The notes under the pieces were generated by a model, which ran no database searches, had not been told where the DNA came from, and worked only from the letters and a program-made list of their open reading frames with translations. DNA of 64,000 nt from Polychytrium aggregatum (Eukaryota; Chytridiomycota; Chytridiomycetes; Polychytriales), in NCBI RefSeq assembly GCF_025602895.1, contig NW_026516255.1, positions 247,429-311,428 on the forward strand, read 5' to 3'. Below, in pieces: positions 1 to 64,000 of the stretch. A program made the position numbers and the translations under genes. Position 1 is the stretch's first letter; every line of letters begins with the position of its first letter.

Positions 1-3000
1 TGCCGACCACCGCCAGGATTACCATCCCATCCCTCGCCTCCATGGTTGTTGCCAGAATGGTGCCACTTGCCTCGCCAACGTCGTGGATATAGATATGTCC
101 GTCTGATGAAGCAACGGCAGTCTTCTTGCCCTCCTTGTCCCAGGCGATCTTGTTCAGGGCCTTGACGCCCGTGGATGTACTCTGGGCAGCGGATGCAGCG
201 CCAGCAGCTGCTGTCGAGCCGGCCGCACCGGCGTTGCCCGTGGCCTGGACTACTGTCGTGGGGATCTGAGCGGAGATGGCTGTCAGGAGGACGTCCAAAT
301 ACAATCGCCCAAATCAGATCACCGACGCCACTTGCGGCACAACCCACCTCGGTCTCCTGGTTGAGGTTGTAGAAGGAGATGCGACCACTGCCGTCGACAG
401 CAGCAAACAGGGCCGGGTGGACAGGCGACCACTTGACATCGTAAACATAGTCGTCGGCCTCGTTGAACGAGTACAAGGGAGCAACCGTCTGAGGGGCGGT
501 AGCGGACTTGGTGGTGCTCTGTGCACAATCGAATCGTGCAGCCCCGGAGGAGTCGCGGAGAGGTCGGAGCGGGTGTTAGCCATCAAGCAACCCCATGACA
601 TGCATCCAATGACCGCGATGCAGATTGAGGGCCCACGGTGCTAGGAATTGCTCCGCCTTCGTGCTGCCCTAACTTGCTCTCGGCATCAGAATCACGCAGC
701 AGCACCAGCCGGCATATCAGTCTCGCACCACGCCGGGAAGGGAGTGCCCACCTTGTTGACCTTCCACAGCTTCACTGTCCAGTCGACAGATGAGGTCAGG
801 AATAGGTCAGAAAAGTCCGAAGCGCCAAAGAGGGGGTGGAAGTGCAGGCCCGTGATCATGCCGCTGTGGCCCCGGTACGAATCCAGTGGGCTGATTCCCG
901 CTTTGCTGGATAATGAAGCCACAAGGAGAGCGGGTGTTAGCAATAGCACAGGCTGGTCAATTGCGCGTGGCCTCGGCCGCCATCTGGTAGAGTGTTTTCA
1001 TCTCTACGACATCGTGGCTTGGCGCAGCGCCTGCGCTCACCTTCCGGCACGATCAAATCGATTGGCTTGGTAAACGGCGCCTTCTTCAGTGCCGACCCAG
1101 AAAGTCGTCGTCTCGTTGGCGGGGAAGCCAAAGGTGGTGACAGCCACCTCCTCGGTCTTGCTTCCTGTCAGAACGAGATCAAGGACTTCCTGGGGCTGGG
1201 CCAGCATGTCCAGCAGCCACGAGCATACGATGCCGTCGGTGGAGGCACTGATGAGGTTGTGCGCATTTTGGGTGCCGACCATGGCCATGGAGTAGACAGG
1301 GTGGGTGTGTCCGGTCGAAGACAGGGGTGATTTGAGCACAGGCTGGCTCTTGGCGCGCATGTCCCACAGCAGGATCTGTCCAGAGTAGGTGCCTCCGATG
1401 ACATAGTTGGGGTGGAATTCCGAGAATCGCGCAGTCATGACATCGCTCTGAAGCATCGCCATGTCGGATTTGGGGCATGAGGGGATTGGGAGCAGATTGG
1501 ATAGCATCAGATGCCGTCTGCGTATCCAAGGCTAGGGGGCCGGGCGCACGCCAGACATCGAGAGCGAGACAGCCTGGGACAGCATCAAGTCAACCCTGAC
1601 CAAGGTTGACTTGTACAACTGTGCATGTGGTCTATCTGCGATCGCTTGGGTGTTTGCCACAGCGCCATGGTCGATTTTGAATTGATGCGAGTGGATAATC
1701 GACCGCATGATCCGCCGTGGCTGGTGCGTGCCCTACCTGCGCATGGAAGATATACTCGGGTCGCTCGCGGAGATGCAGGTTCCATATCATGACGAGACCG
1801 TCGGGGTCGTTGATGGCGTTGGGGTTCTTGCCATACGAGCCCAGAACCAACTCGGGGTACTGCAGAGCAGAGAGCGCAGAATTTCGGATCCAATGGGGCT
1901 CGTGTCAGACTGAGCTTGCACTTGACCGGCAGTGAGCCGCAAGATCGGACACTGCAGCAGCAGAAGGAACCCAGTGTGCCGAAGATCCATCGTACGCACC
2001 TTTGGGCACCAGTCCAGATCGGTGACCCAGCGGTTCTTGGACCACTTTTCGTCAAAGAATTGGCAGTACTGCTTGACGTTCTTGTTGGCATCGTCGTGTC
2101 TGGATGTCATCGACAAGAACGGGCGCCTCGGCCATGAGAATCCGACAAACAGAGCACTGCGCGTTGATGCTCGTAGGCTGTCCAGCTGTTCATGGTGGCA
2201 ATTGCTGTCCGGTACTTACACTTCGCCCTCGTTGGTGATCGAGTAGTCAATCAGATAGTCGTATTTCTCATTCAGGGCGCGCTCGATGACCTTGGAAGAC
2301 TGATCAAAGAACTCCATGAATTGCTCGGAGCTGATGATGGCTCGGCGCTCTTCTTCAGTCAGATCTGCGATTATGTGGTTGCCAGTGAGAGTGAGCGGGT
2401 GTCAGTGAGTATGGGCGGTTGGGGATCGTGGAGCTCCATTGAAACTGGGTCGATGCATGTCGCCCGAAAGAAACGCTTGATAGGCTGACGTGCAAGGCAC
2501 TTGGGGCACCATAGATTGACAGGAGCCATGGACGAGGGCTGCCCCAGCACGAGGCTGGGGCCACAGACATGTCCGAGCCCCATCGGTGTTGACGCCATCC
2601 GAGCGATCGCGCAGCCGTATCGGCACAGTTCTCCACCCACCTCGGATATGCTCGACCTCGTTCGAGATGGTGGGCTGGAGCTGATCGGTAGCAGCATCGG
2701 TGCCGGTGGACTGAGCCACTTTCTCCGGTGCTGGGGCCCCGTATTCGTCGTCGTCGACCTCGTCGTCGCCGAACCCGTGGTCCTCAGGCTGGGTCCAGGT
2801 CTCGACGGTCTGGGCCTCCTTGTTATACAGCTGTTTTTCCTGTTTTCAGCAATTCCGTGGACAGAGGTGAACAAACCGTGACAGGTACAGCGTCAGTCTC
2901 TTGGTTGGAGAGTTCCAGCAAGATTGTACTTGTGCCAATGCGCCACTGGTGTCGAACGTCGGCCGCAAGCCGGCCGCGATCAGTAACCGACCTTGGGTGC

Positions 3001-10450: not shown

Positions 10451-12225
10451 CTAGGCAAACAGCTTGTCGTCTTGCTGCCGCTTCCACAGATGCAGGTTGA
10501 TCTCGGTGGCTCGCCGGAACTCGCCCGAGAGCCGCATGCTGCGGGCATTCTTCTGAAACAGACAGAAGGGCTCGCCGCTGCCGGACCAGTGGAACTTGGT
10601 TTCGCTCGAGACCAGATCGGCCGCCCAGTGGGTGATCTTGAGGGTGCGGGTCTTGCCGACGGGATCGTGGCGGTCGTTGACGGGTCCTCCGTTCATCCAG
10701 AGGGGTTGGTTGCGATCATCCAGATGAAACAGGTTGCCGCAGATAGCACCGTCGTCGCGGACGTAACCAGCGACGCCGCCTCCGTACTTTTCAAAGCGAT
10801 ACGGAGTTCCCAGCATCTCAAAGGCCAGCCAAAAGAGCTCCTTGTCGCCTGAGAGAGCACAGTTGGAGCAGACGGAGAGCAGGGATGATCAGCTATCTGA
10901 GAACGGCCTGGCCAAAGGAACTACCAGCACTGTAATCACACCGAGCGACCGAGACAGCACGCTGCTGCTGCTGTGCTCCCGTTCACTCCAATTGACTGCG
11001 GCCGGGCCTTCTTGAATCACCCGCTCATTGAGCCACTCGATGGTTGCATCGACTTACCCCAGAATGTCCCCCAGAGCGGACCGCGGTACTTGCGGGTGTT
11101 GAGCAGGCAGATGAGAAGCAGCTCGTGAAAGGCACGGCCCTTGTTGAAGATCACAATGCCCGAGTCGACTTCGTGGTCACTGAGCCGGTTCAAGATGCGG
11201 CTGTTGGTCTTGAGGTACTGGGATGGGTTCGGGAACAACTCCTTGAGCTTGCGGTCGGTGGGGTTGTTTGGGTTGAAGATGGTACGATCGCGGAAGTAGT
11301 ATGTTCCGGTGGCCTTGTAGTCGGCAATGTCAAAGGCCCGGGCCGGGTCCTGGAAGAACAAGATGTCGGCGTCGATCAAAATGGCCTCGCTGAAGGATGT
11401 GGCGAGGAGCGTGAAGGGCTTGAAGGCAAAGCCGCTGATCTGGGCCTTGTCGAGGTCAAAGTAGTCGTCGAGGTTCATGATCTGGAGGTCCTCAAACTCG
11501 CCCAGCATCGCACGGTAGACGGCGTCCTTCTCGGTGCCCGAGTCGGTGTAGAAGACCTCGATCGGGAGCGTTGTGTTGACGGACCGGCGGAGCGATCTGA
11601 TTGCCAGATAGGCAAACTCAAAGTGCCCAGCTCCGGTGGTGAGGACGATGCCCCGGGTGTTGCGCTTGAAGGAGCCGAAGAGCTTCTCGGTCGAGGTCCA
11701 GGTGCGAGACAGGGTGATGAAGGGAAAGAGCTTGGACTCGATCTCGGCGAGTGCGTCTTTGGTGTGGGAATCGGCCTGAGAACGGTGGTGGGTCACAAAG
11801 CCGTACAGGTCCCGATAGAGCTCCATGTGGCGGACGAGCTCGACATAGTCGTTCTCGCGCAGTTCGACGGGGCTGAGTGCCGCCCACCGCTCAACCAGCA
11901 GGCTGGACTGCGTCTGGATCTCGCTGGCCGGGAGCTCGTCATGGAGCAAATTGTCGGCGGAGAGATTCATGTCGCCGGCCATCTCGGTTGGGATAGCAAC
12001 GGGCGGCACGTCGACCGTATGAAAGCCGATTTGGGGAGCGAGCGTGCCGGCCATATTGTTCTGGAGCCGACCAAGGAGGGCAACCATCGCGGCGGCCATG
12101 ACGAGCAGAGCCAGGGTCAGTGCGTTGCGGTATCGCATGCGCTGGGGCCGCAACAGGACGGCGGGTTGCGGGTGCTTGACCGCTGCCGCAGCGGGCTGCG
12201 AAACGAGGCTGGCCTTGGAGATCAT
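10451..12225 (-). CDS. Type II membrane alpha-mannosyltransferase, MNN1/GT71 family
   Basis: This is a Golgi glycosyltransferase likely to add mannose to N- or O-linked glycans using GDP-mannose. Two exons (12225-11058 and 10848-10451) join in phase across a GTAAGT...CAG intron and give 521 residues. A short cytosolic tail is followed by one membrane anchor (NALTLALLVMAAAMVALLG, about residues 30-50) and a stem. The catalytic domain begins GIVLTTGAGHFEFAYLAIRS and LRRSVNTTLPIEVFYTDSGT, with the metal-binding DXD in ILIDADILFFQDP. It then has DSGIVIFNKGRAFHELLLIC. The second exon begins GDKELFWLAFEMLG and ends with HLDDRNQPLWMNGGPV and KRQQDDKLFA. These blocks are typical of GT71. I chose the ATG at 12225 because it gives the normal tail-anchor topology; the frame stays open further upstream but with promoter-like composition. 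The exact linkage made cannot be read from the sequence. Confidence 0.85.
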
Positions 12226-13574
12226 GGATGACCGGGATGAGAGAACAGATGGGGAAGCCCAAGCACTTTGCGTGGTCCGAGACGGACGGGGGAGGGAGCA
12301 ACAGCCGTGGCTATATAGCCAGCGGCCTGCCGACTGTGGTCTCCAGAGGGACCGAGGGACCGACCGAACACCCTGGCGGCCCTCTCCCGATGGAAGAAAC
12401 AAGCCGGACGATACCAGCGGCAAGCAGCCCACGCCCCCGACTGCGACAGCGAGCGGCAGCGAAACGAGAGCAAGCATCTCCAGCACCGATGGCGGCAGCT
12501 CTCATCTGGCAGTTTGCTCGCACCGACGGACCCTGCATCGGCACCCTGCTGTCCCCCAGCGGCCCCGACCGGTCTCGACAAGATGGATCATGCACTCGCT
12601 GTGTACTCATGAGCCAAACGGTCAGGGATGGTCGATGCGCTGGACATGGCGAGAGGAAAGAGCGAGGGATAGGGCCCGCAGGGGCGACAGGGACAGACGC
12701 AGGGTGATCTTGGTCAGCGCAGAAGGATGAGGGTGCGTGCAGCCAAGTGATTCCTGCAGGAGGGGGGTTGTGGTCGATCCCACGCCCTGCACCCTTTGGC
12801 TTTCTTCTTGCTGCTGGTGCGGAGTTTGCCAACGACACAGAGATCCCGAGGGATACACCAGCGGCGCCTACAGAGACCCCAGCCGATGTGGACAGACCGC
12901 GCGGGTCGGTGCGGGCAGCGACGGGGGTGGGATGGGACGAAACGGAGTGGGGGAAATGCTGATCTTGTTGAAGAATGATTCACAGAAAAGAAACACCTGA
13001 GCGGGTGGGAGTCGGCATTTCGTGGAGTTCGGGAGGGCATGTGTCCGCCATGCGGAGCAGGGATCGAACGAGCGGGGGACAGGACGAAGAGAGTGGGCGA
13101 GCAAGGGACGGCAACGACAGACGAATGGGCAGAGCGAGACGGGAGAAGCAAACGGCCACACTGCGAGGCCGGTGGGGATGCGGTGGTCACGGAGACGGGG
13201 CAGCGAAGGAAACGAGGAACGACGGGGAGGGGAGACTTGCTCGACAGGCAGCGAGATCATCATCCGGCATGTGCAAGCACTGCACACCAAAGAGGCGAAA
13301 ACCAAAATGCAGAACTGGGAAGCCACAGCGGAGATACATGATACTGAAAGGACCAGGTCGTGCATCGAGCCCTGTTGGGGGGGGGTGTCGAGCAGAGTTA
13401 GCTCGATGGCGGCTGCTGCTCTGGAGATCATCAACACAGTCTGGGCAACAGGCAATGCCAGAAACGAATGCTTACCTACCGGGGTGGAGGCCAGCCATCG
13501 ATGCTCAGCCGGCCATGGCTCCCAATGTGAATCTATGAGATCGGAGCAAAGTCGGCCTCAGCCCTGGCGCGCTC
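12226..13574. other. Intergenic: GT71 promoter region
   Basis: About 1.35 kb separates the GT71 start from the 3' end of the RhoGAP gene. Several frames stay open but none shows recognisable motifs or consistent splice signals, and the composition is purine-rich on the plus strand. I see nothing that supports a gene. Confidence 0.55.
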
Positions 13575-34031: not shown

Positions 34032-36095
34032 CTACAAGCGGATCAGAGGATTGCGCTCATCCTGGTAGTACTTGGCGATCAAAAAGGCAACATCCATGGA
34101 TTGCTCGTAGTTAAGCCTGCGTTGGACAGAGCAGATCGGTGGTCAATCAAAGCGAGGCGCAGATTGGCGCTGGAGTAGCACGGGGAAGCGGTGGCCAGAT
34201 GCACAACGTCGCCGAGGTGGCTTACCGAGGATCGCAGAAAGTCTGATAGTTGCGGGAGAGATCCTCTTCGGAAAGTTGCATCGATCCACCGAGGGCCTCG
34301 GTGACGCGATCGCCGGTGAGCTCAAAGTGCACACCGCCCAGCCTGGAATTGTTCTCCTTGTGCAGTCGGAAGGCATGGCCGAGCTCCTGGAGGGCGGAGA
34401 TCATTGGCACCGATGAGTTCCCGAATGTGTGCCTGGGTATATCATGTTCGAGTGGCAGTCAAGTCAGCGACGAAGGACTCACCGAGACAATGTGATCGAA
34501 ACGGCGAGTCTTGACGCCCTGAACGGTTTCGGTGTTGCCGTGCATGGGATCGCAGCACCAGACCACCTTGCCCCAGTGCGGGGTTTTCTGGACGGCTTGG
34601 ATGTGGCTGGGGAGATAGTCGGCGATCTTTTCATGGCCATAGCGGGTAATCAGAGTGATTTTTCCTGATACGGGAGGGGGCAGCGATGGGCATGTGAGAA
34701 GAGCGTGGACAAAGACTTGCACCGCCGGACCCTCCAGACCAGAGTAGCTCGGTCTGGGATGGACAGACTCAGGTATCTCGAGGGCGCTAGCCTACCAGCC
34801 TCGTAGGTGGGGTTGAGGGCATCCAGCAGGGCCACGAGTTCATCCGGTTGAAGCGAAGGACCGCACTTGATGCCGATGGGGTTCTCGATTCCTCTGAAGT
34901 ATTCGATATGACCGCCGTCAAGCTGGCGGGTGCGATCGCCGATCCACAAGAAGTGGGTGCCGAGATTGTAGTGCTTGCCGTCCTTGGCCTCTCGCGTGAG
35001 TCTGGATTCGTACTCGAGCAGCAGGCCTTCGTGGGACATGAACATGTCGACAGTGTTGAAGGACTGCACCGACGTGTTATCAGCACCCGTGACCTTCATG
35101 AACTCGATCGTATCGCTCAGGCGGTCGAGAATGTACTGGTACTCTTGGCGGACACGGGGGCAGACGACATGCTCCAGGTTCCAGTTGTCGAGGTTCCAGT
35201 TGTCAGGGTGATGGAGATCAGCAAAGCCGTTGGACAAGAGCGAGCGCACATAATTGACCGTGGCTGCGGAGTGGAAGTAGGCACCCAGGAGACGCTGGGG
35301 ATCGGGCTTGCGATCGGAAAGATCGATGCCGTTGACGTTGTCTCCACGGAAGGCGTGGTACTCGACGCCGTCAATGACCTCCATCGGCTTCGATCGGGGC
35401 TTTGCGTACTGTCCCGCCATGCGGGCGATGCGAACCACGGGCGTGCGCCCACCCCAAGTCAGGATGAGCGACATTTGCAAAAGGACCTTGAGTTTGTTCT
35501 CGATTGGGTCCTGGGAGTCAAGGAAGAGCCGGAGCACATGTAAGCCGAGAGCAACAGCCAGTGGGTGTGCGGGTCGGCATCGGAGGAGTGGGGTGGAGCA
35601 GGATCGAGGCGCGGCAGCTGCGAAACCAGCCAAATTGCTCGTTCCTGCCAACCGAGGGAGGCCAGACGGATGACAGCCATCGGCGATGTGGCTATTGGCG
35701 CTGGTGCTGGTGCTGGCGCACGAAGCGAAAGCGGCAGTACATACCTTGGCACAATAGTCGAACAACTCGGCGCAGTCGCCGCCCTGCAGCAGGAAGCTCT
35801 TGCCAGCAGCAACTTCCGCGAGCTGGTGCTTGAGCTTGGAGATCTGGAAGCGCGAGCAGTGAGACGAGTGGTGGAATGAGCACGAGTGGCCGAAGACAGA
35901 TATACGGATGCCAGCCGACTGCGCGATCACCCATAGGTGTCAAAGAAGGGAAGTGATCCGCACCTCCTCGGCGGCCACCAGCGGAGGGAGGCGACCCAGC
36001 TTCTGGAGGACCGAGTCAAGCTCGGGCTGGTTTTCGTAGATAACGTCCTGATGGACGTTCTTGGATCTCCAGGAATCAGTAGACCAGTCCGACAT
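34032..36095 (-). CDS. 3-deoxy-7-phosphoheptulonate (DAHP) synthase, class II
   Basis: This enzyme condenses phosphoenolpyruvate with erythrose 4-phosphate, the first step of the shikimate pathway to aromatic amino acids. It is the class II (AroA-II, plant-like) type rather than the ARO3/ARO4 type of yeast. The ATG at 36095 begins SDWSTDSWRSKNVHQDVIYE, as in plant and fungal class II enzymes. Further exons contain LLQGGDCAELFDYCAK (metal-ligand cysteine), RIARMAGQYAKPRSKPMEVI, YHAFRGDNVNGID, AYFHSAATVNYVRSLL, DMFMSHEGLLLEYESRLTRE, GTHFLWIGDRTRQLDGGHIE and NPIGIKCGPSL. C-terminal exons give ITLITRYGHEKIADYLPSHI, VVWCCDPMHGNTETVQGVKT, RLGGVHFELTGDRVTEALGG and the end MDVAFLIAKYYQDERNPLIR with L and TAG at 34032-34034. 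All conserved substrate and metal motifs are present, so it should be active. Several introns interrupt it. Confidence 0.93.
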
Positions 36096-36570: not shown

Positions 36571-37772
36571 TTAGTCGAAGAGACCGAAGCCCATGTCATC
36601 GTCCTCCTCCTCCTCGGGCTCCTCAGCCTTGGCAGGGGCAGCAGCGGCAGCAGCAGCAGCGGGGGCAGCAGCCTCGGCGGGGGCAGCGGCAGCAGCAAGG
36701 GCGGCGAACTTGCTGGGGTCAGCAAGGATCTCCTTGATCTGTTGAGGAGCGACAGACGCAAGCATGCGCCAGAAGAGCAAGGTCAGAATCAATGCATCGT
36801 GTGCTCAGCAGTGCATGGAGCGCGCGCCAGGGTGCAGGCTCATCATCTCATGTAAAAATTAGAGTGTATGATTTTGGAAATCGCCATGGTTGGGTCCGAA
36901 CAGTGTCTAATCATCGGTGATGTGTCCCGCACTCTCCCCATATCCTCCACCTCGTGCAACTCGACCAGACGACACCTTACCTTGTCAGCAGCCTCGAGCT
37001 GGACCTCGGAAGCGAGGGCAACGGCAATAAGGTTCTTGTAGCCGTTGACGAGGATGTGGGGGACGGCAGCAACGGTGGGGAAGCCGATGGCGAGGGAGAG
37101 CGAGGCAATGGTGGCGATACCAGTGACCAGGTTCTTGATGAGGGACTCCTCCTCAACGTCAAGGAGAGAGGCGCTGAAGACGGCGCCATCGGAGAAGACG
37201 TTGACGACGGAGAGACCGTAGGTGAAGGGAGAGATGTTGAGCATGTTGAGGAGGGTAGCCTCGGAGGGACCGACACGGCTGCCGGCCTTGACGAGGTGGA
37301 CATCGTTGACGATTTCGATGGTACCACGGGCAATCTTGGTGGGGATACCGAGAGCCTGGAAGAACGAGGTCTTGCCGGGTTCCATGCCGGTGTTGCCGGC
37401 GGGGACGTGGACATCGACGGGAGCGAGGGCACCGGCCTTGGCAGGGGCACGGACTCGGTTGGCGAGGATCTTCTCGCGGGTTTCCTTCAGGTCGCCCTTG
37501 GTGAAGACGAAGCCGACGTTGCCAACGACCTCCTTGAGGAGGTGCTCGTAGCTGGGGTTCTCGACAACCTTCTTGCGAAGAGCACAGCGGACCATGGTGT
37601 TCTTGCCCATGAGAATGACAGCACTGCCGCGCAGAGACTGGCGGATCTGGTGCATCTGGTTGGAGCCGACATTGTCGACGTTGACAATGAAGATGGAGGG
37701 GTACTCCTCGAGAAGCTGCTCAAGCTTTTGGAAGTAGGCTTCCTTCTTGGCGCGAGCGTCTCCCTTTGACAT
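36571..37772 (-). CDS. RPLP0: 60S acidic ribosomal protein P0 (uL10)
   Basis: P0 forms the base of the ribosomal stalk: it binds 28S rRNA at the GTPase centre and carries the P1/P2 dimers that recruit elongation factors. Exon 1 (37772-36981) starts [20 protein letters not shown] and includes [58 protein letters not shown] and [27 protein letters not shown]...ACAG intron leads to exon 2 (36738-36571), which encodes [20 protein letters not shown], an alanine-rich hinge and the invariant stalk terminus [14 protein letters not shown]. The total is 319 residues, against 317 in human. Codon use is strongly C-ending, as expected for a highly expressed gene. The ATG at 37772 is unambiguous. Confidence 0.98.
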
Positions 37773-38629
37773 CTTTCTGTACGTGTTCAAGGGGTGTGAG
37801 AATTTAAAGACCTCTGTTGGGGTGCAAAATGTCGTTGGGTGAGTATGATCGTGGGGACGGCTGTTGCACTGTGCCGCCTTGGATCCAATCGACCCATTCC
37901 GTGGTTGCCACGAGTCTGCTGCTGTCGCCGTTGTCATTATCATTATCATGCTTATCATCCGCTGCGTCCCCGCGTGCGTGGCTGTCATGATCAAATGTTG
38001 CGCTGTTCCAATCGAGGAAGCCAGTCGCGAGGCCGTGCGGGTCTCGGATTTGACCAGTCCGGCCCAGTCCGGTCCAGTCCAGTCCAGTCCATCACTTGGA
38101 TTACGTTGGGCGAAGCTCTCCGTTGGCACGTTGCCCAAGTCTTCACTTTATGGCCGATCGACGACAGCAGCAGACAACAGGACACAAACACACACACACA
38201 CAACCAGTGCATGAACAGATGGGTGGATGGATGGATGGATGGATGGATGGGTGGATGGATGGATGCATGGATGGATGGATGGATGTTGGTGGCCACCATC
38301 GTCCGCGCCTCGTATGCCGCATCGTCAGAGCTTCCCGATACCCACCGGCTGAAAATTCTGTGGGAAGGACCAAGCATGTCTGCCGCCCACGAAGGCTATT
38401 TGTACGCCAGCCCACCTGCCTCTCACGTGACTCAACCACAGCCCTCCCGGTTGGCGGCACAGTTGTGCTGCCGATGCTTGAAACCGGGACGAGCGCGGGC
38501 AAGTCACGAGCCAATCACATGTCTCCCCTCTCGCTGTTCTCGCTGTTCTCGCCGAGATGCGACTTGGTTCAAGGCCAGATCGACCAGACCCCAGATCGAC
38601 GCACCCATCGACCGCACCCATTGCCAGCA
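37773..38629. promoter_or_regulatory. Divergent promoter region P0 / HIR1 with three simple repeats
   Basis: About 860 bases lie between the P0 start on the minus strand and the HIR1 start on the plus strand. The region holds a (CCAGT)n tract (about 38050-38093), a short (CA)n run (38187-38200) and a (GGAT)n tract (38219-38285). No coding sequence is supported. Confidence 0.55.
38219..38285 (+). repeat. (GGAT)n tetranucleotide microsatellite
   Basis: About 16 units of GGAT/GGGT, slightly imperfect (one GCAT), in the shared upstream region of P0 and HIR1. Confidence 0.92.
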
Positions 38630-48154: not shown

Positions 48155-50744
48155 ATGCCTCCTAAGGAAAAGAAGTCTGCCAAGTCTGCCAAGGCTGCAA
48201 AGAGCTCAAAGAACTCGTCAGTCGACAGTCTGGCCGCCGGCGTTGGCAAGGTCAAGATCGAGAACAACCGATCCTGCTCCGGTGTCCTGACCAGTCAGAA
48301 GGACAGCAGAGGTACGTATCTTCCGTTGGCTTCGTGCTCGCTTGCTCGCTTGCTCGCCCGGCGTGCGCCCCCAGAACGACCGCCGGTTTAGCTGCTGTCT
48401 TTTCGCTGGCATGGCTCTCCGTTCGCTGGCGATGCGCTTGTTGGCCCTCCGCTCGTCCGATCGCCCACGCTGCTGCATTTGATGTCGCCTCAAGTGGCCA
48501 CTCCCTGCATATCCATAGTCTCTTTGGAGTGACTTTCTGCTCATGAATCTCACCCGTCGTCTTTTCGCAGATATCAAGATCGAGCAGTTCTCTCTGACGT
48601 ATTTCTCCCAGGTTCTCATCCAGGAGACCACCCTTGAGCTCAATTTTGGCCGTCGGTATGGTCTCATTGGCCCCAACGGATCGGGCAAGTCAACCTTCCT
48701 CGAGGCTCTGTACGCTCGCGAGGTGCCCATTCCGGACCATATCGATATCTTCCTGCTCAACTCTGAGTATCCCCCCACGGAGATGACCGCCCTGAATGCC
48801 GTCATCGACGATGCCAACAAGGAGCTCGCGGTAAGCTGTGCGTCCGTGCCTGCAGGTGGCATAGTCAGAAATTCGCTGTAGGGGCTGTGTCGACACAGGC
48901 TGCAGCCCGACAGTCAACCCAGGGTCGCCTGTATATCGTCTTTATCCTTGCTGAGGGTCGATTCCGGTGGCATGTCTTTTTGGTAGCCCCTTCTGTCGAC
49001 ACATTCTAATCGCTCTCTTATCCTCTGCGCTCCCCTGCCACTCGTTTCAACAACAGCGTCTCGAGAAGCTGATGGAGACCATCCTCGAGGAGGATCCCGA
49101 ATCTCCCTTGCTCGATGACATTTACGAGCGCATTGACGGCCTTGATGCCTCAACCTTTGAAAGCCGTGCTGCTTCCATTCTCTACGGTCTCGGCTTCACT
49201 AAGGAGAAGATGGACTTTAAAACCAAGGATCTGTCTGGCGGCTGGAGAATGCGTGTTGCTTTGGCTCGCGCTCTCTTCGTCAAGCCCACGCTTCTTCTCC
49301 TCGATCAGCCCACCAACCATCTGTACGTATGATGGGTGCCGCCGAGCTTGCTCAAGTGTAGAGCCCTACACAAGTCTCGACTGCCAGCCCGAGACTCAGA
49401 CGCTGCAGCGTGCACAGCCAATGCCTGATCGATATTGGTCCGATTGAAAAGCCAGCTGAGCTGCGCGGAGTGCTAACGTTACTGTTTTTGCCCCACTGGT
49501 CTGTTGCACAGTGACCTGGGAGCATGCGTGTGGCTCGAGGAGTATCTGAAGACATACAACCGCATTCTTCTCATCATCTCGCACTCGACTGACTTTTTGA
49601 ATGAGGTAGCCACCTTACAACGAGCGCTGCCGCTTGGGTCTGCCTGCTCTGACTGCTTCGGATTTGGAGCTCCAGCTGTGCTCGCAGCAGTGGTATTCAT
49701 GTCGCGTTCGGTGCCCGTCATTTGCTGACCAGGTTTTCACACCCCATCCACACACAGGTCTGCACCAACATTATCGAGCTCAACCCCAAGCGGCAGTTTG
49801 ATCATTACAGTGGCAACTTTGACATTTACGTCAAGACCAAGTATGAGCTCGAGGTCAACCAGATGAAGGCCTATGAGAAGCAACAGGATGAAATCGCCCA
49901 CATCAAAAAGTTCATTGCCTCCTGCGGTACCTACGCCAACCTGGTTCGCCAAGCCAAGTCGCGTCAAAAGATTCTGGACAAAATGGAGGCCGATGGCCTC
50001 GTCGAGAAGGTCCAAAAGAACCGCGAGTTCCGATTCCAGTTTGACTGCTCCGGCAAGCTCCCTCCTCCGGTCCTGTCCTTTGACGATATGAGCTTTGCCT
50101 ACGACGGCAACCTGAAGAAGAATGCCATCTACAAGAACCTGGAGTTTGGCGTCGACACCGACTCGCGCATTGCTCTCGTTGGCCCCAACGGTGCCGGCAA
50201 ATCCACCCTGCTGAAGCTCATGGCCGGTGAGCTCTCTCCCACCACGGGCAGCGTCAATCGCCATACCTCGCTCAAACTCGGCCGGTACAACCAGCATTCG
50301 GCTGAGCAACTGGATGGGTCCCTCTCGGCGGTGGACTATCTGCGAGCCAAGTTCCCCGACCTCCCGCAGGATATTCAGTACTGGCGACAAAAGATTGGCC
50401 AGTACGGTCTGACTGGCAACAACCAGCTCTGTCCCATCGACCAGCTGTCCGACGGCCAAAAGTCGCGCATTGTCTTCTGTGAGCTCTCGATCAACGCCCC
50501 CAACATTATCCTCTTTGATGAGCCCACCAACGCCCTCGACATCGAAACCATCGACTCGCTCGCTGAGGCCATCAATGAGTTTGAGGGTGGCGTCGTTCTG
50601 GTCTCGCACGACTTCCGTCTCATCTCACAAGTTGCTGAGCAGATCTGGGTGTGCGAGAACCAAAACGCGCATCTGTGGGAAGGCACAATTGCCGAGTACA
50701 AGGCCCACCTGCGCAAGTCCGTCTGTGCCGACATGAAGATCTAA
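48155..50744 (+). CDS. ARB1: ABC-F ATPase ARB1 / ABCF2, ribosome biogenesis factor
   Basis: ARB1 is a soluble twin-ATPase needed for maturation and export of both ribosomal subunits. Five exons (48155-48311, 48571-48830, 49057-49322, 49512-49605, 49758-50744) join in phase to 587 residues. A Lys/Ser-rich N-terminus ([20 protein letters not shown]) precedes ABC domain 1, with Walker [10 protein letters not shown], signature [15 protein letters not shown] and Walker [14 protein letters not shown], then H-loop IISHSTDF. The linker ([20 protein letters not shown]) is as in ABCF2. Domain 2 has Walker [10 protein letters not shown], signature [14 protein letters not shown], Walker [14 protein letters not shown] and H-loop [10 protein letters not shown]. 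The end is [11 protein letters not shown] with TAA at 50742-50744. In domain 1 the catalytic glutamate after the Walker B aspartate is read as glutamine (CAG at 49306-49308, residue 223), where ARB1 normally has DEP. Domain 2 keeps its glutamate. The gene is otherwise typical and codon use suggests high expression. Confidence 0.96.
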
Positions 50745-59053: not shown

Positions 59054-62000
59054 TTATCTGGCTACCGCGGTTTGCTCGCCTTGCTGCCTTTCGATGATAT
59101 GAATGTTGTTCATGATCATTTTGATATAGGGGTTCTCAGGGTCCTGGATGTTCTTGGTGCAAATCTCCAATGCGGCTTGGAAGGAGACAAGTGCTTCATC
59201 CAGACGTCCTAGTTTGGATGCCGTCGTACCCATATTGTTGAGGGTCTGGGCAACATCGGGATGATCGCGGGTGCCATAGACCTTGACTTTGATATCAAGA
59301 GATTCTTGGAAGAAAGCAAGTGCATCGTCCAGACGTTCTTGGTCACATGCCAAGAAAGCGATGTTGTAGAGGGTCTGGGCAACATCGGGATGCTCGCGGG
59401 TGCCATAGACTTTGATCATAATATCAAGAGATTCTTGGAAGAAGGCACGTGCTTCGTCTAGACGTCCTTGGGATTTTGCCGTCATACCCAAGTTTTTAAG
59501 GGTTCCAGCAACTTCGGGATGGTTGCGGGTGCCATAGACTTTGATCATAATATCAAGGGACTCTTGGAAGAAAGAAAATGCATCGTCGAGACGTCCTTGG
59601 TCATTTACCACCATTCCCATATTGTTCAGGGTCGTGGCAACCGAGGGATGCTCGCGGGTGCCATAGACCTTGACTTTGATATCAAGAGCTTCTTGGTAGA
59701 AAGCAAGTGCATCATCCAGGAGACCTTGGTTCCATGCCATATTGCCCATATTGTTCAGGGTCTGGGCAACATCGGGATGATCGCGGGTGCCATAGACCTT
59801 GACTTTGATATCAAGGGACTCTTGCAAGAAAGCGAGTGCATCGTCCAGACGTTCTTGGTCACATGCCAATAAACCCATGTTGTTGAGGGTCTGGGCAATA
59901 TCGGGATGATCGCGGGTGCCATAGACTTTGATCATAATATCGAGGGATTCTTGGCAGTAGGTGAGTGCTTCGTCCAGACGTCCTTGGGATTTTACCACTC
60001 CACCCATATTGTCAAGGGTCAAGGCAACATCGGGATGTTCGCGGGTGTCATAGGCCTTGACTTTGATATCAAGAGATTCTTGGTAGAAAGCAAGTGCATC
60101 GTCGAGACGTCCTTGGTCACTTGCCACCATACCCATATTGTTGAGGGTCGTGGCAACATCGGGATGTTCGCGGGTGCCATAGACCTTGACTTTGATATCA
60201 AGGGACTCTTGCAAGAAAGCGAGTGCATGGTCCAGGCGTCCTTGGGATCTTGCCAATAAACCCATGTTGTTGAGGGTCCCGGCAATATTAGAATGCTCGC
60301 GGGTGCCATGGACCTTGACATAGATATCGAGTGACTTTTGGAAGAAGGCGCGTGCATCGTCCAAGTGCCCTTGCGATCTTGCCACTTCACCCATATTATT
60401 GAGAATAATGGCAAAGAGAGGATGGTCGAGGGTGCCAAAAAGCACCGTAATTCGTTCCAAGAGCCTCTTGTATGTATCCATTGCTTTGTTGTAGAGTGGC
60501 TTATGAAAGTTCAATGTGGCAACCTGGAACTCGATCGAGGAATGCAGTTGCTTGGTGTAAACCTCTGGAACGGTCTTCTCGGCGTATTGTTCGAGGTGCT
60601 CCGCAAATGACTGTGCCTTAAGATCCATCGAGTTTGTCAACTTAATCAACACCTCGCCCGTTGCATCTTCGATTGCTTCGACATCCAGCTTCTCATGCGC
60701 TTGAACATACTCTCGAGCCACTTGCTGGGTGAGCGAGTGTGTCGAGTACTTTCCCTCGGTTCGACTTCGGAGGAGACCGCTCTGGACCATCATCTTGATC
60801 AGATCGGTCACTGTGGACAGATGAATGATCAGTTCCATACACTGACACCATTGATTGCACTTTGATCCACTCGCAACTCACCTTCGGTCTTGAGCTCCAA
60901 CACCTCAGCAATCTTCTTGATCAACTCGAACAGGATGTTGGTCGGCGCCACCAGACTGAGGGCCCCGAACAGCCTGGCTGCCTCGATGCCTTCATATCCT
61001 CGCTTCATCAGCGAGACCAGCGACAGATCCACAATCACCTTGAGCGACGATCGCGTGTCGTCATCGCCATCCTGCTCCTCGAGGACCTTGGAGAACAGCC
61101 GATCGACCTCGGACAGCGGCACCTCGTTGTTCTCGTAGAATGTCATGAACGTCTGGATGACGAGTGGATATCCACTGATCTTGGCCACGATGCTGTCGAG
61201 GGATTTCCTGGCCTCGTCCGACACAAGTCGCTGGACAATCATTGGCGACGACGACATGATGTAGTCGAGCGTGGTTTTGTCGTCCCAGTTGACGAGCCGG
61301 AGCAGATCGTGCTGAAAGCTCGGTGCCTTGGTCTCAAGAGCACTGGTTAATGCACCAGGAGGCAGCGAGGCCAGCCGGGTCGTCACCACCACATCGCCGC
61401 TGAACCCGACCGACTTGGAGTGCTCAAACACAGAGTCGACCACGCTGATGTCATCGACATTGTCGAGTACCAGGAGATAGCCGTGAGTGTTGGCGAGGAA
61501 CTTTGAGGCGTACTCCTTGATCTCCTCGGGTTCGATGCCAGGGAACATCTCGATGAGGCCATCGAGGGCAGTCGACTCGGTCGAGCAGTTGATCCAGAAT
61601 ACCTGGCGGTACTGCGGCTTGATGCCAATGGTCTCGGCTTTGATGGCGAGGAGGTCTTGCTTGTTGCTCGCATTCAGAATGCCCATCATGAAATGGAGGA
61701 TCTGGACAGCCAGGACGGACTTGCCCATGCCACCCATGCCGGAGATGACGGCGCGGCCAGTCAGGGTGAGTTGCTTGAGCAGAGTGTCGAGGCGAATGGG
61801 ATCGACTCGGAACTTGGAATCACAAAAGTATTTGTCATGAATGGCCGTAATGAGATCCATGTTGGGTGGGATGGGATGGACGAGGTTGAGGAGGCGGTAG
61901 GCTCGCTTGTGCATCTGGTCGGGGCGGAAGCCAAAGGACTGGATCTGGTTCACTCTGCCGAGGATCTGCTTGAGGGGGGCAAAGGCAGGGTCGTCGGGGA

Positions 62001-62454
62001 GGGACACCATATAGGGCAGGAAGGGAGTGAAGACATCGACGCCGTCTTTGGTCTCCTTGGTGGCGATTCCGAGGGGAAGGACAGGGAGGGAGCGATTGGC
62101 ATCCTTGAGGTCGAGGGCGGTCTTGATCTCAAGCAGAACGCTGTCCTCCTGGCCATTCTTGGCCTTGTTCTTCATCAAGTCCATTGAGGCCTTGCTAAGG
62201 AGCAGGATGATGACCTTGCTGGTGGGGAGGGCGCTGATAGGGCTGGCATGAGGGTCGCTGGGATTGTTGAGGCAGTCGACATCGTGGAAGACAGAAAGGG
62301 GTTTGCCATATCGACGGAGGGCGACCGAGGTGAGCACCTCCTTCAGAGCCTGGACAGTGTCGGCATCAGTCTGGGCACGGTAGGAGAGGAACAGATCGTG
62401 GTCGGTGCCGTGAGCAGGGCAGGAATAGAGCTGGTTGCTGGTGGGTGTCAACAT
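59054..62454 (-). CDS. TIR-NB-ARC-TPR protein (NOD-like / STAND receptor-like ATPase)
   Basis: Two exons (62454-60882 and 60810-59054) join in phase through a GTGAGT...CCACAG intron to give 1109 residues. Residues 19-165 form a TIR-like domain: HDLFLSYR opens it, VFHDVDCLNNPSDP occupies the BB-loop position, SKVIILLLSKASMDL follows, and Glu109 in DSVLLEIKTAL falls where TIR NADases have their catalytic glutamate. The NB-ARC ATPase has Walker A GMGGMGKS (residues 239-246), Walker B LLVLDNVDD (about 326-334) and the sensor-like VVVTTRLASL, then a winged-helix part (YSTHSLTQQVAREYV). The C-terminal half is ten 43-residue TPRs of kinesin-light-chain type (consensus HPDVAQTLNNMG...QGRLDDALAF, QESLDIKVKVYGTRE). 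This is the layout of fungal, plant and bacterial NOD-like proteins: a sensor array, an ATP-driven oligomerisation switch and an effector domain. A role in non-self or parasite recognition and TIR NAD+ cleavage is inference. A truncated retroelement lies 390 bases upstream. Confidence 0.85.
59140..60430 (-). repeat. Ten tandem 129-bp repeats encoding 43-residue TPR units
   Basis: Direct comparison shows a 129-base period; for example, the motif GCAACATCGGGATG recurs at 59250 and 59379. Units are highly similar at the DNA level, including third-codon positions. The first (HPLFAIILNNMGEVARSQ) and last units are the most diverged, as expected for arrays that expand and contract from the middle. 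Residue changes cluster around the QESLDI(K/M)(V/I)KVYGTRE segment and the A..Q position. Confidence 0.93.
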
Positions 62455-62840: not shown

Positions 62841-64000
62841 TTAAAAGTCCCACTCGGGAATGTCGCCGGGCCTGGCTTGCCATCCAGCGAGTCTCCACAT
62901 CAGGGTATGGAATATCTGTTCCAGATCAGTCCACAGACCGTTGAAGGCCTGTCCCACGATGGGTTCTTCGTTTTCCAGCTTGCCAACCTCTCCCAGCATA
63001 TCCAACAATTTATCAATAGGCCCGACACCTTCGGTCTCGGGCTCGGTCCATCCAGTGAAAATATCCTTATAGCCCTGTACCAGGGCGTCCAAGGTGTCTT
63101 CCTCATCCACACACGTCTGTGCGTGGGATCTGCTCAGCTCGATTCGGCCTTCGCCGTTGCATTTGCACTTTTTACAGAGGCGGTACTTGCCGTGTGGGTG
63201 CCAGGTGAATGCCCCCAGTCTCCACCACACCATTACTACGTGTAGTCTGCGTGGGATGCTTGGTCCAAGTTGGGTCCAGACTCCCGACATCTTCGTTCTT
63301 GGTGTGCACGCAGCCGTCAGCTGCTGTCCTCGCTTGAACGATGTGTGGGCATCGTGGGTCAGCATGAGTGTATTGACCGACAGAATCTGTGTGCGATCCG
63401 TGGTCGAGTCGTCGTCCTTGGCAAAGGCCATGGACATCGAGAACGTGGCGTTCTTCTCCTTGCGGGTGCAGGTCAGGTTCCATTGGATGCTTTCGTAAAA
63501 GGGCTTGCCAAAGTATGGCTGGTCCTTCATCGCCGTGGATCGGATAAAGCGGGTGATGAGGGCGATCATCTTGTCGTCGTGTGTGGCGACGTCTTCCCAT
63601 CGTGCTCGGCATTGGATGCCGAGGACCTTTGCTCTTGTCGCCATCGTGGGTAATCCGCAATTGAGGTGCAGTGCTCCGTGTGAAGTCGTGCGAGCTGTGC
63701 GGAACAGTAAGTTCAGGCAGAAGGTTTGTGTCCGGTGGAGCCGCTTCTGTTCGTTCATTGGGATGGCGTCGAGGGCGAGGCCGTATTCCATCATTGGCCG
63801 CAAGAACGTGCGGTATGCAATCGTTGAGGTCTTGGCCGTGAGGTTCCCGAGGGTCAGGCCCATCTTGGCCATGTTGGATGCTGCTTCTCTTGTTCTGGTC
63901 ACCATTCGGCCCTGGCAGATCGTCGATGAAGGCGCTGAACATGAGTGGGCTCAGCACCGATCCCTGGATCAGTCCTTTCTGGAGCCATTGTAACGGACGG
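62841..64000 (-). pseudogene. Non-LTR (LINE-type) retrotransposon remnant, 3' part, running off the window
   Basis: At the right edge the minus strand encodes a reverse-transcriptase block, GLIQGSVLSPLMFSAFIDDLP, typical of LINE RT motifs 4-5. Right after it the reading frame shifts (near 63905), and the next recognisable part is NLTAKTSTIAYRTFLRPMME with YGLAL, which normally lies well downstream of the catalytic (F/Y)ADD box. The ADD box and the intervening palm/thumb segment are therefore missing. The remaining 354-residue frame contains a cysteine/histidine cluster (CKKCKCNGEGRIELSRSHAQ, then TCV) like the terminal zinc knuckle of LINE ORF2 and ends at 62841. The element lies on the same strand as the adjacent TIR-NB-ARC gene and cannot be autonomous. 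Its 5' part lies outside the window. Confidence 0.8.

Follow-up and report, generated by a model that had tools for sequence, protein, structure and literature searches.

A TIR-NB-ARC-TPR gene of Polychytrium aggregatum is one of dozens of related copies and probably encodes an NLR-type receptor

We analysed a window of 64,000 nucleotides from Polychytrium aggregatum and found on its reverse strand (62454..59054) one intact gene, encoding 1109 residues followed by a stop codon and free of internal stops; the genome carries dozens of related copies of it. The reading that we consider probable is that the product is a fungal NLR, a STAND ATPase of the order TIR, NB-ARC, TPR, belonging to a large and actively diversifying family, and that it would act as a nonself sensor whose clustered TIR domains consume NAD+. 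The intact gene, the domain order, the NTPase motifs, the conserved glutamate, the purifying selection, the variable TPR positions and the mosaic copies are read from the sequence. The nucleotide switch, oligomerisation, NAD+ cleavage, cell death and an immune or nonself role would follow by analogy with the families to which the domains belong.

The gene model comprises two exons and a short intron:
60882..62454, reverse strand: exon 1, encoding TIR and NB-ARC, residues 1-524 and the first base of codon 525
60811..60881, reverse strand: intron of 71 nt, GTGAGT...CCACAG
59054..60810, reverse strand: exon 2, encoding the end of the NB-ARC region, the TPR array and the stop codon

In a mechanical list of open reading frames the gene appears as two frames of 541 and 594 residues, so that only removal of the intron joins them into the single 1109-residue protein. 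All of the 23 further paralogous loci (18 distinct segments) have a GT...AG stretch of 69–95 nt at the corresponding place, its length being a multiple of three in 10 of the 23; the 5′ end, GTGAGT in the window gene, reads GTAAGT or GTTCGT in a few paralogs. For L034 and L035 the exon preceding the intron is longer. With this two-exon model the original prediction, which had seen TIR, NB-ARC and TPR in one protein of 1109 residues, proved correct in coordinates and length. Third-position GC in the window gene is ~0.78 in exon 1 and ~0.55 in the TPR exon, and 18 loci showed the same direction, with 0.73–0.79 for exon 1 and 0.50–0.72 for the TPR units.

Searches of the genome returned chitin synthase matches at 26 places, Zn-cluster matches at 27 and radial-spoke matches at 8, which together point to a fungus with a flagellum, consistent with the fungal genome that had been assumed initially. 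Elsewhere in the window, Pfam matches marked a mannosyltransferase (11017-12486), a class II DAHP synthase (34650-35930), a ribosomal L10-family protein (36843-38138) and an ABC transporter-type ATPase (49722-50744).

The amino-terminal part of the protein contains the following features:
62059..62409, reverse strand: TIR domain core, residues 16-132 (TIR_2 match over 22-132; family profile match to SARM1 over 15-117)
62128..62130, reverse strand: codon of Glu109, the putative catalytic glutamate, assigned from conservation and the SARM1 alignment

The core displays box 1 (HDLFLSYR), box 2 (SVFHDVDCL) and a helix with LEIKTAL. Scanned alone against Pfam, the window N-terminus matched only TIR_2 with E=0.034 and 15.1 bits, below the 28-bit cut-off. 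A single-sequence search of the PDB with the window TIR gave nothing convincing (best E=0.74), and an AF2 model calculated from the single sequence, without an alignment, reached a pLDDT of 39.7 and was not used. As the match of the window protein alone lay below the cut-off, paralogs were collected, yielding 33 aligned N-termini with identities to the window from 98% down to 25%. TIR_2 matched 23 of these 33 members at E<=1, the best at 2.2e-8. When 10 divergent members were scanned singly, eight matched TIR_2 and one of them, L062, 42% identical to the window TIR, passed the curated cut-off with 35.1 bits; L065 and L067 gave no match of any kind in these single scans. The profile built from the 33 N-termini retrieved 23 distinct PDB sequences at E<=10, all of them TIR proteins (19 SARM1 or TIR-1, two Roq1, one TIR-STING and one L6), with SARM1 first at E=0.0017 and seven sequences at E<0.01. 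Because the family matches TIR_2, L062 exceeds the cut-off and the PDB matches are all TIR proteins, the TIR call is clear of chance, and the N-terminus is best described as a divergent TIR, a homology that is well supported for the family. On the other side, L062 searched alone against the PDB found no TIR, and when the family profile was compared with a second TIR from this genome the probability was only 3%, although the register was correct. The original prediction had named a TIR-like N-terminus and had proposed profile searches for TIR and NB-ARC. Its TIR assignment stands through the family profile, and NB-ARC exceeded its cut-off, whereas the TIR_2 match of the window protein on its own (E=0.034) stayed under the Pfam threshold. 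A DUF4062-like or HET-like N-terminus was also considered and rejected, no such Pfam match appearing in the 33 members at E<=1; a genome-wide search for HET (PF06985), run without a positive control, returned 0 matches.

Glu109 aligned in the family profile alignment with the glutamate of SARM1 KEIVTAL, which we take to be the catalytic Glu642. Glutamate occupies this position in 44 of 46 non-identical paralogous TIRs (50 were collected, four being left out as identical) and is kept in 14 of the 16 copies with at most 55% identity to the window (L055-L070). The two exceptions, Gln in L065 and Leu in L067, are the same two copies that gave no TIR_2 match; these two most divergent NLR copies are possibly inactive or regulatory members. 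SARM1 has a tryptophan four positions ahead of its glutamate, where most copies of the family carry Ser or Asn instead. By alignment Glu109 falls where active TIR NADases keep their glutamate, as had been predicted, and it is conserved; by analogy this protein may cleave NAD+ through it.

TIR_2 matched 34 places genome-wide at E<=0.1, nine of them over the cut-off, and some of these are copies of the NLR family. L071 (G000:C386:1071600-1074400, 1228-2238, forward strand) encodes a separate TIR protein with 61.5 bits to TIR_2 and no NB-ARC match; by eye, the region after its TIR appears internally duplicated. The existence of such separate TIR_2 genes, together with the absence of the SARM1 tryptophan from the family TIRs, would suit a receptor of the same build whose TIR serves as a scaffold (adaptor) recruiting other TIR proteins, with no NAD+ cleavage. 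We regard this as unlikely, since a pure scaffold would not need the glutamate, and its retention in 44 of 46 copies, despite TIR divergence to 25% identity, counts against it.

The central region matched NB-ARC (PF00931) with E=4e-7 and 30 bits, compared with a cut-off of 23.5, and contains the following motifs:
61717..61740, reverse strand: P-loop GMGGMGKS, residues 239-246; G, K and S invariant in 21 distinct family rows
61453..61476, reverse strand: Walker B LLVLDNVD, residues 327-334; D331 and D334 in 21 of 21
61375..61383, reverse strand: TTR motif, residues 358-360; T358 and R360 in 21 of 21, T359 in 19 of 21
61162..61173, reverse strand: GxPL motif GYPL, residues 428-431; G and P in 20 of 21, L in 21 of 21
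60725..60742, reverse strand: MHD-like motif THSLTQ (TH.L), residues 548-553; His in all 23 matched loci, counting twins

The NTPase motif set is hence complete and near invariant across 21 distinct rows, in full agreement with the complete NB-ARC P-loop and Walker B noted at the outset.

The carboxy-terminal part is formed by the repeat array:
59114..60403, reverse strand: residues 661-1090, ten 43-residue TPR units, from the TPR_12 match, the unit count and the model

The TPR_12 match (E=5.9e-112) and the ten units substantiate the long TPR array of the original prediction. The best of five single-sequence models of residues 640-1109 had a mean pLDDT of 89.8 and displayed regular helix pairs, the other four reaching 83.5, 55.8, 35.8 and 32.3. 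The best PDB sequence match of the array was the kinesin light chain TPR (E=2.2e-33), and kinesin light chain TPR domains were among the Foldseek matches listed, with TMt up to 0.81 over ~260 columns. Across the family the number of TPR unit matches per locus ranged from 7 to 27, the array of L044 being split over two frames. We obtained 179 complete units from 21 sources, and for the analysis of variability and repeat identity left out seven of the 21 as twins, retaining 139 units from 14 sources. When the six most variable unit positions were determined over random halves, positions 6, 9 and 28 were recovered in 20 of 20 and position 42 in 19 of 20. In the held-out loci, pN/pS was 0.75 at the six most variable positions compared with 0.32 for the rest (median, 20 splits). 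TPR variation is concentrated at few unit positions. Positions 42, 6 and 9, which are 7 and 3 residues apart, would by our reading of the spacing lie on one face of helix A, with position 28 on helix B, and the pattern would suit a sensor surface with freedom to vary. Positive selection on the TPR sites was considered but gained no support, pN/pS at the variable six being below 1 on average; individually, only positions 9 and 29 exceeded 1, and position 39 was at 1.0. The window units share a mean identity of 64%, or 70% over the first nine, and within-gene unit identity was above between-gene identity in 8 of 12 genes.

To delineate the family, the N-terminal 197 residues were searched against the 64.7-Mb genome and gave 143 places at E<=10, whereas NB-ARC gave 82 at E<=1e-5. 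For the pairing, exon pieces were merged and 79 TIR places were typed from the 143 rows, leaving out weak rows (mostly with E above 1e-4) and two 29-residue fragments; two weak TIR places were kept because an NB-ARC lay nearby. Correspondingly, 79 of the 82 NB-ARC rows were used, three fragments of already counted genes being left out. TIR and NB-ARC of the window type were paired at 75 places, leaving four TIR and four NB-ARC places unpaired. The 75 include twin contigs, which are either haplotypes or duplicates, and distinct loci are therefore fewer than 75. Membership in a family of this kind had escaped the original prediction, which was made without database searches. Neighbouring members in opposite orientation were observed at G000:C168:468101(+)/475750(-) and G000:C46:285984(-)/288097(+), an arrangement that recalls paired NLRs. 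Four copies lie ~8.6 kb from contig starts, which had suggested a subtelomeric location; the contigs of L043, L044, L045 and L049, however, begin at position 1 with the same tRNA-like sequence and not with telomere repeats, so this idea was dropped, and the shared start may represent a repeated segment or an assembly break. A recent transfer from bacteria was considered and gained no support: a search of bacterial and archaeal genomes with one degenerate pattern, a weak test, returned no relative, and one divergent copy searched against plasmids gave nothing.

Median dN/dS values were 0.30 for TIR and 0.28 for NB-ARC (66 pairs of 12 loci, out of 18 with a full exon-1 match), and both domains are under purifying selection. 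Of the 20 loci whose full sequence was read, most keep open frames; some family copies are broken by stops or frame breaks, and several contigs carry near-identical copies. Directly upstream of the window gene, at 62841-64000 on the reverse strand, lies a retroelement-like stretch with an RT-like motif recognised by eye and broken frames; one of its frames was scanned and gave no Pfam match. The 1.5 kb upstream of the gene are ~95% shared with L038 and L042. This shared retroelement-like flank, the near-identical copies on several contigs and the broken copies would be expected if the family had spread mainly by mobile elements or segmental duplication and most copies were inert. Such an origin appears very unlikely to us in view of the dN/dS of ~0.3, the near-invariant NTPase motifs and the open frames in most of the 20 loci.

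Comparison of the paired places revealed mosaic copies, some of them twins. Five of the 75 places join a distant TIR (50-55% identity to the window) to a near NB-ARC (76-85%), and two show the reverse mosaic, a near TIR (80-81%) on a distant NB-ARC (57%). For L073, identity to the window is 23-63% within the TIR and climbs to 57-97% over the NB-ARC region; for L074 it drops from 67-97% to 30-93%. The change falls near residues 175-200 in both, a pattern that suggests module swapping at the TIR/NB-ARC junction. A finer comparison is offered by the twin copy L031, which differs from the window at 41 of 7551 bases, the number per kb amounting to 14.0 for exon 1 and 4.6 for exon 2, with 5.3 upstream and 1.1 downstream, and with replacements in 16 of the 25 changed codons. 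All seven differences that lie in 61627-61659 agree with L038, L040 and L042, so that this tract in L031 looks conversion-like, as ectopic gene conversion would leave it. For a second cluster of 12 sites at 60902-61016 no donor was found among the 19 loci compared, and the window base is private at most of the 12.

These features also bear on whether the protein might be a developmental or housekeeping STAND signalling protein, acting for instance in the cell cycle or in sporulation, and no nonself receptor at all. Its NB-ARC and TPR regions do align with the bacterial FxSxx-COOH model NF040586, for which we know of no immune role. Dozens of copies, a variable number of TPR units, mosaics and an exon 1 that diverges more between the twins (14.0 per kb) than do the flanks (1.1 and 5.3 per kb) are, however, typical of recognition families as opposed to single-purpose regulators, which makes a housekeeping function rather improbable.

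The nonself receptor is the preferred reading. In the mechanism that we propose, the superhelical TPR array would keep the protein off, and the variable TPR face would sense a foreign or altered-self protein or peptide. Upon ligand binding, NB-ARC would exchange ADP for ATP and oligomerise, thereby activating the clustered TIR domains, which would consume NAD+ through Glu109 and so kill or arrest the cell that has been infected or has fused. A wider proposal, which we put forward as possible but doubtful, is that the NLR repertoire of this fungus consists largely of one TIR-NB-ARC-TPR family, gaining specificities via TPR number and surface, ectopic conversion and swaps of entire TIR modules among NB-ARC lineages, with TIR NAD+ signalling being an old fungal trait. 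If true, recognition would be TIR-based, in place of the HET and many further effectors found in other fungi, and TIR NAD+ signalling would have been kept or re-acquired in zoosporic lineages. The family is a compact setting for asking whether the TIRs of fungi, like those of plants and animals, cleave NAD+ and kill cells; its mosaic copies, with the same NB-ARC and different TIRs, are natural experiments on which TIR residues matter.

SARM1 resembles the family as the best PDB match of its profile and in the aligned glutamate, and differs by its tryptophan near that glutamate; it is not known to contain an NB-ARC or TPR. The kinesin light chain TPR, the best PDB sequence match of the window array, has a similar fold, but the window array would be a sensor on a STAND protein and not part of a kinesin subunit. 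Compared with NF040586, the window protein scored E=2.7e-12 for NB-ARC and 1.3e-51 for the TPRs (46 and 176 bits, from the two exons) against a cut-off of 300 bits, and the paralog L073 reached 278.5 bits, also under this cut-off.

HET, NACHT and WD40 are found in het-d and het-e of Podospora where the window protein has TIR, NB-ARC and TPR. These two HET-domain NLRs, whose repeats show high internal conservation, share with the window family a TIR-related N-terminus, a STAND switch and a repetitive sensor with variable sites, the repeats appearing partly homogenised within the gene (PMC12222747, PMC4986451). Within-gene repeat identity in the window gene is, by comparison, only 64%, and in the family it is not always above the between-gene value (8 of 12 genes).

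Plant TNP proteins (formerly XTNX) match the window protein in the order TIR, NB-ARC, TPR, in the P-loop, TTR, GLPL and MHD-type motifs and in the conserved TIR glutamate (PMC9806590). The same paper mentions fungal and bacterial TIR-NB-TPR proteins alongside plant TNP, with a cross-kingdom similarity that rests on the nucleotide-binding domain, and describes a maize TIR-NBARC-TPR that causes cell death and requires the TIR glutamate and the P-loop (PMC9806590), thus providing a functional precedent for the receptor reading. Whereas the plant TNPs listed there are few per genome, with one in Marchantia and four in N. benthamiana (PMC9806590), dozens are present here, and unlike plant TNPs the window family has internally repetitive, length-variable arrays.

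Among fungi, chytrids and Mucorales yielded no NLRs in the study of Dyrka et al. (2014) (PMC4986451), a picture that is incomplete in view of the present TIR-NLR family of a flagellated fungus, which is large, intact and evolving. According to Wojciechowski (2022), TIR has been reported in NLRs of Chytridiomycota (PMC9815663), which, like the window gene, are fungal NLRs with a TIR N-terminus from a zoosporic lineage, and the window gene probably belongs to this group. The original prediction of an undescribed immune-like system can accordingly not be upheld, since the literature already contains both TIR-NB-TPR proteins from fungi and TIR NLRs from chytrids (PMC9806590, PMC9815663). Our literature search, which covered few subscription papers, returned no title or abstract that deals with a TIR-NLR family of large size in a zoosporic fungus. 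For the Chytridiomycota TIR NLRs (PMC9815663), the present analysis adds figures on copy number, conservation of the glutamate, mosaics and variation of the repeats. The kind of protein is already known; what this work contributes is the size of the family and its mosaic evolution, which make it well suited as a test of TIR-based immunity among fungi.
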